The position numbers and the translations under genes were made by a program. A stretch of DNA of 24,133 nt from a virus: the IMG/VR virus record IMGVR_UViG_3300035701_000286, positions 1-24,133 of that record. One strand, given 5' to 3'. This document shows, in pieces, positions 4,363 through 7,771 of this stretch (within the stretch, counting starts at the first letter, position 1; the number at the start of each line of letters is the position of its first letter). Under the pieces are notes generated by a model. It was given only the letters and a program-made list of their open reading frames with translations. It was not told where the DNA came from and ran no database searches.

Positions 4363-6024
4363 TTATTGTGCTTTTTGCTCTTTCTCTTTGTAAGTTACTA
4401 CCGGCTCAATCGTTCCGTCTGGATACACCATAGCTTTATTGCCATAAGCGTCCATCATCAGCTGGCCTTTTGGAGAAAAAGTTGCGAGCTCGGGGATTTT
4501 GCTGTTTATGTGATCCTGCATTATGGCTTTCGCGGCGTCTTGCGGCACTGTCCCTTCTTGCGATAGAGTACCAAGCAACTGCTTAATCCTTCTGGTAATT
4601 TCTTCGTCGCTGGCGTTGTTATTGTGCAACCACGATTTTACTGCCTTGACTGTATTTACCAAGGGCCCGGAACTGCGGTTAAATTCAATATCTTTGAGGT
4701 TTGTTTTTAAAGTATCCAGGAATTTCGCCTCGGTTGAGTTTACTATCCCGTCGGCATAGGCTTGAGATAATTTCTCGCGGGCGTGCCATTTATCGGTATC
4801 TTCGTTTATGAAGGCTTCTATCAAGTCGTTATATTCCTTAACCTGTTGTGCTCGCTTTGTAGGTTCTTTATCGGGAGTTTTCTCCTGCAGCATCCGGTTT
4901 AAATCTCTTTCAATGCCACGTTGCAGCGCGGTCTGGTAGTTTACGAGCATTTTCTTCTTTAGTCCGCCCTGTTCTTCCGGCACCTGCAGCTCATTCTCTA
5001 TATCTACCAAGGCCAGCTTCCCCTGGGAAAGCTTATCCAGCAGTTCGTTGTGTCGGGTTTCCTGGCTGTCGCTTATCATCTGCTCGGCAAGCGTATTGGT
5101 AAAATCATAAGCTGCCTTGCGCTTTACAGGGTCTTTAATGTTGTAGGCGTTCTTCTCAAGCTTCTGGCGGGTGCTTATAGGATCCAGGAAAGCGTCTTGT
5201 ATGGAGATAGCATAAGGAATGCCGCTCTCAACCTGCTCTTTCATCTTTTCTTCTGTCTCAGCCGGTATCTTGCCTTTTACGGCATTATAAATAGACTGCG
5301 CCTTGATTAGATTCTTTTCATCAGCGGCGGCTGCAAATGCGCTCTTTGCCACTTTCCCGGTAATCTCTATTTTTTTAGCTTCAATGGTTTTAGCATCATA
5401 TCCGTTTATCCTACTTAACTCGCCCTGTGTAGCCACGGCTGAATCTATCGCTCTTATAACTGACGGGCCATCCTGCAGGCGTGCGGCTTCGTTTACTTGG
5501 ATTTCCAGGTTTGAATTAAAAGAATTCTGAATGCTTTCGTCGGTCTGCTGGCGTTCATGCCGGATAATGGTATCCCTGTGGCTTAAGTAGCTTGAGTCAA
5601 GCAACCGGCCAAGGGCTTCTTTTTGCTCGGCAGCCGGAACATTGCTGAGGTATTTATTTTTTATTCCTGTGTATATGCTGTCAAACTCCGGGATACTACC
5701 TTGCGCCTGCTCAAGCTTGCGGCTTAAAAATCCCAGGGGCCTGCCCTTCTTGTCGGCCTGCTCGTTGTATAAAACATTCTGCATTTCCTGCCGGAATGCC
5801 GTATCCTGATCTGTAACCTGCTTTGCCATTATTTCTCTTTGGCGCTCTATCCCTCTTAGCGCTAAAGCCTCGCCTATACGCATGGCAGTTTCTCCAAGGC
5901 GCTGATTAGCCTGCGCAGTTTTTCCTCCAAAAACATCTTCCGGCGGTCTTAATTCCCGCTTAGTGGAGACGTTCGGAGCGATCTTACTCACTTGCCGCTC
6001 GTATGTAGGGACCTTAATTGCCAT
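4363..6024 (-). CDS. Internal virion protein, T7 gp15-like position (553 aa)
   Basis: The 553-aa product opens MAIKVPTYERQV, a start I associate with a family of phage core proteins next to the 'CDP' protein encoded just upstream. It is nearly all helical, rich in Lys, Glu, Gln and Ala, with long coiled-coil-like heptad stretches, few cysteines and no signal peptide or membrane helix. The C-terminus (LMMDAYGNKAMVYPDGTIEPVV) looks like a short beta-rich tail. The ATG at 6024 has TAGGAG 5 nt upstream, and that TAG is the stop codon of the gp14-like gene. Position and helical character suggest a T7 gp15-type protein that forms part of the ejected core and a trans-envelope channel. It is shorter than T7 gp15 (about 750 aa), so equivalence rests on order and composition rather than visible motifs. 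Confidence 0.75.
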   Translation of the reverse strand: MAIKVPTYERQVSKIAPNVSTKRELRPPEDVFGGKTAQANQRLGETAMRIGEALALRGIERQREIMAKQVTDQDTAFRQEMQNVLYNEQADKKGRPLGFLSRKLEQAQGSIPEFDSIYTGIKNKYLSNVPAAEQKEALGRLLDSSYLSHRDTIIRHERQQTDESIQNSFNSNLEIQVNEAARLQDGPSVIRAIDSAVATQGELSRINGYDAKTIEAKKIEITGKVAKSAFAAAADEKNLIKAQSIYNAVKGKIPAETEEKMKEQVESGIPYAISIQDAFLDPISTRQKLEKNAYNIKDPVKRKAAYDFTNTLAEQMISDSQETRHNELLDKLSQGKLALVDIENELQVPEEQGGLKKKMLVNYQTALQRGIERDLNRMLQEKTPDKEPTKRAQQVKEYNDLIEAFINEDTDKWHAREKLSQAYADGIVNSTEAKFLDTLKTNLKDIEFNRSSGPLVNTVKAVKSWLHNNNASDEEITRRIKQLLGTLSQEGTVPQDAAKAIMQDHINSKIPELATFSPKGQLMMDAYGNKAMVYPDGTIEPVVTYKEKEQKAQ

Positions 6025-6032
6025 ATCTTCTC

Positions 6033-6671
6033 CTAAAAAAGTTTATTGGGTGACCAGGCGGTAGTAAATTTATGCCCGGCTACTTCCTGGGGGCCTGTTG
6101 AAATAATCTTACCGCCTGAGTTTCCGCCGCCACCCGGTATCTTTGAACCCATTAAAAACATTGACCCGGCCGTACCCAGTAATGTCGTTGTCATATTTAT
6201 CCTTGCGGCGCGGCGAGCTTCTTTTCCGGCAAACCTATACAGCCCGGACTGCTCCATTAGCGATATCTCATCCTCTGCCGCCTCTTTTCTTATTCCCCAG
6301 GATTGCACGTCTGCGTTATAGCGGATATTGCCTTCATCAAGCTTTGCTTTGTTAAAAGTATCGAGAGCGATATCTTCCGCAGTTACGCCGAAGATTCCGT
6401 TTGCAGCCATAGCAGCTTTTTGCGCGCCTTCAACGCTGGCCACCTCGCCTTTTAATTCTTTTGCTTTATTCGCCGCTTCATTCTGGGCAAGGCTTACTCT
6501 ATCTTCAGCTGTCTTTTGCAGCGCCCTGGCCTGGCGTTCATTTGAATCAGCCAAGTATTGATAGTATTTATTTTGTGATTCACCTTCCGAATATTGACCA
6601 TACGCGGCCATGCCGCCGGCTGCGGCGGTAAGAACAAGGCCAGTAACAGTCAAACTTACAGGGTCACAAAT
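6033..6671 (-). CDS. Internal virion protein, T7 gp14-like position; probable AUU start codon
   Basis: The 212-aa product should begin (M)CDPVSLTVTG, the typical Met-Cys-Asp-Pro opening of this phage core family. It continues with a Gly/Ala-rich hydrophobic helix (residues about 8-25, suitable for membrane insertion on ejection), a long Ala/Gln/Lys helix with family-like NERQARALQ and AQNEAANKA stretches, and a glycine-rich C-terminus. Family members normally start with ATG, but here the codon is ATT (6669-6671), with GGAGG 6 nt upstream. The only longer in-frame reading starts at 6812 and merely reads the HNH gene in another frame, so I reject it. The next in-frame candidate, TTG at the seventh codon, is too far from the ribosome site. 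The start overlaps the HNH stop by 8 nt. The gene lies directly before the gp15-like gene, matching T7 order. Function is inferred from family and synteny. Confidence 0.8.
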   Translation of the reverse strand: MCDPVSLTVTGLVLTAAAGGMAAYGQYSEGESQNKYYQYLADSNERQARALQKTAEDRVSLAQNEAANKAKELKGEVASVEGAQKAAMAANGIFGVTAEDIALDTFNKAKLDEGNIRYNADVQSWGIRKEAAEDEISLMEQSGLYRFAGKEARRAARINMTTTLLGTAGSMFLMGSKIPGGGGNSGGKIISTGPQEVAGHKFTTAWSPNKLF

Positions 6672-7278
6672 TTTGCACCTCCGTTTTATACTCCTCCACT
6701 GTTTTATTATTTTTACTACAGTTACATTTTTGGCAAGCAACATCCAAATTTTTTCTATCATTTGCCCCACCTCTCGATAATGGCGTTTTATGCTCAAGGT
6801 GGTCTTTACCAAAAGGCACGGGCTCTAAACATAGATAGCAGGTCAGCGTGCCATACTGCTTGATATTGTCCTCATAGACCTGCTGAATTACCTGAAGAGT
6901 TAAATCAGAAAGCAGAATTCTTCTCTTATGGTAAGAGGCTTTTACGGATAAAGGATTTCTGCGGCGCCATTCCTTAAATGATTTAGCATGCCATTCTTTT
7001 GTTCTACAGAAACCACCTTTCCAGGCATGATTATTTTTACCAGTTAACCTTGCCCTTAGTTTATTTTTAAATTCCTCAGAATGTATATGGTAGCCCTTTT
7101 TCCCTTTATTCCACGCTGTTGGATGCTTCCCATACATAGGATGGTTCTCTCCCTGTAGATAATCAGGGTGCTTGCCTTTATTCCAGGGAATGCGCCCCTT
7201 CATTCTTTCGGAATGTTCTGGGTTAGGTCCAGTTTTTAACCCCTTATTCCAAGGAGACATGCCTTTTTTAAACAGCAT
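6664..7278 (-). CDS. NUMOD3-HNH homing endonuclease (free-standing)
   Basis: The 204-aa product has repeated NUMOD3-type DNA-binding motifs in its first half: MSPWNKGLKTG, RIPWNKGKHP, MYGKHPTAWNKGK and NNHAWKGG. An HNH nuclease follows, with C-Y-L-C, then KDHLEHKTPLSRGG (catalytic D-H and H), an Asn pair (NDRKN) and C-Q-K-C-N. These enzymes nick or cut a specific site and copy their gene into unoccupied alleles. I chose the ATG at 7278 because GGAGGG lies 4 nt upstream; the reading frame extends to 7326 but that start has no ribosome site. The gene overlaps the end of the gp13-like gene by 11 nt and the start of the gp14-like gene by 8 nt. It interrupts a T7-type gp13-gp14 junction, as expected for a mobile intergenic endonuclease. 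All catalytic residues look intact. Confidence 0.92.
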   Translation of the reverse strand: MLFKKGMSPWNKGLKTGPNPEHSERMKGRIPWNKGKHPDYLQGENHPMYGKHPTAWNKGKKGYHIHSEEFKNKLRARLTGKNNHAWKGGFCRTKEWHAKSFKEWRRRNPLSVKASYHKRRILLSDLTLQVIQQVYEDNIKQYGTLTCYLCLEPVPFGKDHLEHKTPLSRGGANDRKNLDVACQKCNCSKNNKTVEEYKTEVQNL

Positions 7279-7771
7279 TTTCCCTCCGAAATGAGAAATA
7301 ATGAAAAGGTATATTTTCTGCTCCATAAGGCTTGGCTTCTTCTATCTCTGCCCCGCAGGCCCTGAGCCATTTGATTGACGATTTATTACGCGCGTCCACG
7401 TGATTATATAAAACAGGGCATTCCTCAAGAAACATATCTATAAAATTCCGGCATTCTTTAATCAGCGATTTACGGACGCACTTAAGCCTCTCGGCATTAA
7501 ATCCATCGGTTGCTAAAAGCCAAATGGTCGCGCTGTCGCTTATCAAGGTTTCAGGAGATATGCCAAACATGGCCACGAGTGTTCCTCTAAATAATACAGT
7601 CAGGCACAATTCTGACATTTCAAAGGATAGCCGCAGTGCCTCTGCCGGCGAGTGGTGGTGGCTGGCCCAAACTTCGTCTATATCTGTCTTGCGTAGATTA
7701 TTTTTCATGTCTTCTACGTCTGTAGGTTCTGATGTCCGCACCAATATTCCGTGTTTTTCGTAATAAATCAT
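7268..7771 (-). CDS. T7 gp13-like / DUF2833 virion assembly protein (GNAT-like fold)
   Basis: The 167-aa product has the form of the phage Gp13/DUF2833 family: an N-terminal VRTSEPTDVEDMKNNLRKTDIDEVWAS segment, a central LFRGTLVAMFGISPE strand-turn, IWLLATDGF, a helix with E-C-R-N-F-I-D-M-F, and a late YNHVDARNKSSIKWLRACGAEI segment. The last part matches the cofactor-side Asn/Trp region of GNAT acetyltransferases. In T7, gp13 is needed to form infectious virions; its enzymatic role, if any, is unknown. The start codon lies directly after the stop of the nozzle gene (TAAATG) with no clear ribosome site, so translational coupling is likely. Its 3' end overlaps the inserted HNH gene by 11 nt. 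A true acetyltransferase is possible, but synteny favours the virion role. Confidence 0.82.
   Translation of the reverse strand: MIYYEKHGILVRTSEPTDVEDMKNNLRKTDIDEVWASHHHSPAEALRLSFEMSELCLTVLFRGTLVAMFGISPETLISDSATIWLLATDGFNAERLKCVRKSLIKECRNFIDMFLEECPVLYNHVDARNKSSIKWLRACGAEIEEAKPYGAENIPFHYFSFRRENAV

Follow-up and report, generated by a model that had tools for sequence, protein, structure and literature searches.

The gp14-like internal virion gene in this 24,133-nucleotide stretch of viral DNA (the window) probably begins translation at an AUU codon placed behind a strong Shine–Dalgarno site, and comparison with its relatives leads us to propose, with the same good but incomplete confidence, that phages alternate in this gene between a strong site with AUU or AUC and a weak site with AUG, both arrangements giving a similar moderate dose of the protein. 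The opening is not likely to be due to chance, since many phages show it again in their gp14-like genes; because AUU or AUC opens the corresponding gene in so many other phages, the use of these codons appears from the sequences to be a repeated evolutionary choice, neither an oddity nor an error.

The gene (positions 6033–6671, minus strand, stop codon included) encodes a 212-residue protein that matches PHROG 418 (internal virion protein) with an E value of 3.8e-19, residue 2 of the protein being aligned to profile position 2, and that scores 37.5 bits against the Pfam family T7_gp14 (PF24072; cut-off 27), confirming the initial annotation of the product as a gp14-like ejection protein. Its placement is also that of the T7 gp14 family, after a gp13-like internal virion protein gene (7268–7771, minus strand; PHROG 308, E value of 1e-35) and before a gene for a 553-residue protein (4363–6024), with an HNH endonuclease gene intervening between the first two. 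Neither PHROG nor Pfam gave a match for the 553-residue protein, which nevertheless occupies the usual position of an internal virion protein. A search of a phage collection with the window protein and DNA gave no match. The nearest relative is L004, in which the nozzle protein is 75% identical and gp14 about 61% identical; in this genome and in L002 the gp13-like gene directly precedes gp14 and no HNH gene separates them. The window protein resembles the T7 gp14 family in its profile score, its Met-Cys opening and its location between the gp13-like gene and the next internal protein, but differs in its start codon, which is ATG in L004, L002, phiV10 and Caulobacter phage S2B and ATT in the window.

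On the minus strand the gene opens as ACGGAGGTGCAAA-ATT-TGT-GAC-CCT, with the ATT at 6669–6671 and a GGAGG Shine–Dalgarno site at 6678–6682, the two being separated by a 6 nt spacer (TGCAAA). The duplex energy of −13.1 kcal/mol, calculated for pairing with the anti-Shine–Dalgarno sequence, makes this the strongest ribosome site among the window gene starts inspected (the next is −12.1 kcal/mol). The initial annotation had proposed this AUU as the start, with GGAGG six nucleotides to its 5′ side, and had suggested a comparison with relatives lacking the HNH gene; the GGAGG is present, in the last HNH codons, and L004 opens as GGGAGGACCAACTAA-ATG-TGC-GAC-CCT, so that the comparison of sequences supports the proposed start. 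Its statement that no ATG, GTG or TTG lies in a usable position was nearly right: it stands for TTG 6653 (codon 7) and ATG 6611 (codon 21), for which a ribosome site was sought and none was found, but not for an in-frame ATG at 6761, since the gp14 frame is open for 51 codons upstream of the ATT, inside the HNH gene, and the sequence in front of this ATG, GAGAGGTGGGGCAAATG, resembles a ribosome site (−10.3 kcal/mol). Initiation at 6761 would place a 30-residue basic extension before Cys-Asp-Pro. We regard this as very unlikely: the bases in question also encode the GGAND residues of the HNH protein, which explains their resemblance to a ribosome site, L004 and L002 lack such an extension and start at the Met of Met-Cys, and an upstream start is impossible in many of the relatives with ATT or ATC. 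Still less probable is a sequencing or assembly error at base 6669 that hides an ATG; the ATT is indeed one base away from ATG, but dozens of phages that were sequenced independently, and prophages within several bacterial genomes, likewise have ATT or ATC at this codon. The ATT is therefore the best start call for the gene, and on the window alone it would be likely, if short of certain.

The neighbouring HNH gene (6664–7278, minus strand; HNH_5, HNH and NUMOD3 matches) starts at ATG 7278, preceded by CGGAGGGAAA, at the end of gp13. The GGAGG of gp14 is contained in the last HNH codons, and the HNH TGA (6664–6666) overlaps gp14 codons 2–3, such that the final TTG-TGA of the HNH frame (6664–6669, within ATTTGTGA) forms an out-of-frame pair overlapping the gp14 start. 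An HNH nuclease motif, a NUMOD motif and absence from L004 and L002 are as expected for a homing insertion. The initial annotation had suggested that this insertion created the AUU start, and several features agree with the suggestion: the gene lies exactly between gp13 and gp14, it supplies the GGAGG from its last codons, it is flanked by the similar sequences CGGAGGGAAAATG and CGGAGGTGCAAAATT, and L004 and L002, which lack it, have ATG. The similarity of the flanks, however, may simply reflect two ribosome sites, and AUU or AUC is also found in phages with a different, ordinary neighbour before gp14. Because these starts recur in many phages without a preceding HNH gene, we consider it distinctly unlikely that the insertion was the cause of the AUU. 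In this phage the strong site may derive from the HNH gene, which the AUU does not require.

Recurrence was assessed by scanning viral contigs for GGAGG followed by 4–9 bases and ATT-TGY-GAY-CC, together with matching scans for other start codons, a gene being counted as gp14-like if it matched home-made profiles seeded with such genes. The ATT scan returned 86 stretches, 12 of which are gp14-like, and the ATC scan 28 gp14-like genes out of 77; none of the ten stretches found by the ATA scan of viral contigs was gp14-like. Behind the same GGAGG, ATG is found in at least 48 gp14-like genes (48 of 62 among the matches listed), and GTG, TTG and CTG in three of 21, one of 11 and none of 26, respectively, again among the matches listed. 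Assignment to PHROG 418 or 805 was confirmed for the window, L219, L095, L068 and L088; a PHROG match was sought for L308, L356 and L019 and none was found. The overlap between frames varies with the start: AUG-UGY overlaps an out-of-frame GUG, AUU-UGY a UUG and AUC-UGY a CUG. The absence of AUA may be explained by the out-of-frame AUG that it would create before the Cys codon.

Relatives in two clades, A5 and A6, were gathered with peptide patterns that cover neither the start codon nor the ribosome site. The clade representatives, L308 and L356, fall outside the PHROG family profiles and a profile comparison found their N-termini alone; both clades are therefore described as gp14-like by position and N-terminal opening only. 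Clade A5 contains 14 ATG, four ATT and four ATC starts (eight of 22 near-cognate). Among the 51 usable genes of clade A6 there are 38 ATG, six ATT, four ATC and one each of ACG, GTG and TTG, giving 11 near-cognate starts. When these near-cognate sets are combined with two Caulobacteraceae loci, ATG, GTG and TTG are absent from the stretch that separates the upstream in-frame stop from the near-cognate codon in 14 of the resulting 21 genes; the other seven have such a codon upstream. The clearest case is L356, which cannot start otherwise because a stop lies three codons upstream and the first in-frame NTG is at codon 125. In the ATT and ATC lineages 62% and 70% of the codons altered between positions 2 and 18 differ by silent changes, where 28% would be expected if single bases changed at random; this N-terminal stretch is therefore under selection and translated. 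ATC starts are also found in Caulobacteraceae prophages (L387 from Brevundimonas sp. ASV9, L389 from Brevundimonas sp. EYE_349, G115 and G154). One Caulobacteraceae genome, G185, carries two prophages (L397 and L401) whose gp14-like genes start with ATC and ATT, and the copy in Caulobacter sp. D5 has ATG. A search for clade A6 in 385 genomes from the class to which the Brevundimonas genome belongs gave no match.

Within these clades the start codon is paired with the strength of the ribosome site. In A5 the mean site energy is −10.3 kcal/mol for near-cognate starts (n = 8, all −9.3 or lower) and −4.0 kcal/mol for ATG (n = 14, all −7.2 or higher), with no overlap; in A6 the corresponding means are −9.5 (n = 11) and −6.6 kcal/mol (n = 38). 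Mann–Whitney tests of site strength by start, uncorrected for descent, gave p values of 7e-5 (A5) and 6e-6 (A6). The trees require a minimum of three changes of start class in A5 and 12 in A6 (three and ten if only near-cognate and NTG are distinguished), and the site class changes three and 11 times. In nine independent pairs on well-supported branches, start and site change in the same way in about seven and in opposite ways in none. The distance to the stop of the upstream gene also varies, usually being 2–8 bases for ATG genes, whereas near-cognate genes mostly have it 12–18 bases away or overlapping at +5. An upstream TGA overlapping at +5 was considered as a constraint that forces ATT or ATC, but was rejected as a general explanation, many ATT and ATC genes having the stop at −12 to −18. 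The pairing does not hold throughout the wider family, in which strong-site ATG genes are common. L138 (ATG) and L219 (ATC) are 99% identical and share the same strong site; this pair and the strong-site ATG genes of the scans indicate that a weak start need not accompany a strong site, and the notion that a strong site always brings one was discarded.

We infer initiation at AUU, the level of protein that results and selection on that level from these patterns. In the window a strong site six bases 5′ of the AUU would recruit the ribosome directly, and the initiator fMet-tRNA would then pair with just two of the three bases of the AUU. Such phages have switched repeatedly between this arrangement, with AUU or AUC, and a weak site with AUG. 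The AUG of the latter often lies a few bases from the stop of the upstream gene and would be suited to re-initiation; the strong-site AUU or AUC probably yields about as much ejection protein, a moderate amount, independently of the upstream gene. The suggestion of the initial annotation that an AUU start would lower or tune the level of this protein is plausible and agrees with the pairing with strong sites. These two routes to a moderate dose, direct initiation and often re-initiation, are suggested by the cited work in combination with the present data. Alternatively, the AUU could be a real start that arose by drift, permitted by the strong site and free of selection on expression, or one under IF3 control as in infC. 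Closely related phages often differ in having ATG, ATT or ATC, in one case behind an unchanged site (L138 and L219), IF3 disfavours the pairing of AUU and AUC with weaker anticodons (PMC10158994), and infC itself uses ATT or ATC (PMC5472188). Under drift alone, however, GTG and TTG would be expected to outnumber ATT and ATC, and they are the rarer codons both among the matches listed and in the A5 and A6 sets; we consider this alternative somewhat unlikely, though less so than an origin by HNH insertion. More tentative than the AUU start and its alternation with AUG, and somewhat less likely than not, is a wider proposal: that in many phages, mostly uncultivated, AUU and AUC are ordinary, selected ejection-gene starts that, together with strong sites, fix a moderate dose independent of the upstream gene, that the UUG-UGA within AUU-UGU-GA may act as a start-stop decoy lowering the dose further, and that gene finders restricted to ATG, GTG and TTG would misplace these starts.

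To our knowledge, AUU and AUC starts have been treated as curiosities of a handful of genes, infC among them. A literature search, with subscription journals mostly outside its scope, found no report of AUU or AUC starts in phage internal virion genes. The start of infC is ATT or ATC, and initiation factor 3 discriminates against such a start (PMC5472188). The initial annotation had offered E. coli infC as the known parallel; it is not the only relevant one, as AUU and AUC recur at the gp14 codon in phages. E. coli infC (AUU) and Streptomyces infC (AUC) resemble the window gene in using AUU or AUC as a genuine protein start, as judged for the window gene by its sequence, but infC is a single autoregulated housekeeping gene, whereas the gp14-like gene is a phage structural gene in which ATG, ATT and ATC interchange in a manner tied to site strength. 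IF3 favours strong pairing at the third base and acts against AUU paired with the CAU anticodon (PMC10158994). Weaker starts tend toward stronger Shine–Dalgarno sites, as has been shown for GUG and UUG in a study that covered AUG, GUG and UUG, omitting AUU, and in which alphaproteobacteria gave no significant effect (Belinky 2017; PMC5622118). The phage genes likewise combine a stronger site with a weaker start, but here the effect reaches AUU, AUC and ACG, and does so within one gene. AUGUG starts in E. coli are ambiguous between frames (Kohl 2022; PMC9841429). The AUG-UGY of Met-Cys genes similarly overlaps GUG in another frame; the earlier study concerned two overlapping canonical starts, in contrast to the near-cognate first starts of gp14-like genes.

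A gene that recurs with near-cognate starts beside ATG relatives, its site changing in step, represents a natural experiment on the trade-off between start codon and Shine–Dalgarno site, of which L138 and L219, nearly identical but for the start codon, form a part. The starts of gp14-like genes are probably misplaced by standard gene callers. In Mycobacterium phage jiawei (L305) the GTG-TGT-GAT-CCC start of the gp14-like gene (2387–2402) is already skipped, the record annotating an ATG too far downstream. Start codons of other genes were surveyed in 12 phages as a rough control, in which gp14 lay outside the filter: 87 of 92 homologous starts are ATG, GTG or TTG, and the remainder comprises one clear ATT, in the gene after gp14, and others that are alignment artefacts or doubtful. 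In clade A5 the gene that follows gp14 (MPGIY...) has an ATT start in L309, L313 and L315 and an ATC start in L316, and three of the four have ribosome sites of −6.9 kcal/mol or stronger. In L391 (700–1470) a small ORF immediately before gp14 contains a second copy of a gp14 fragment (residues 88–129) and is itself preceded by a further ORF, an arrangement that may represent another insertion between gp13 and gp14.
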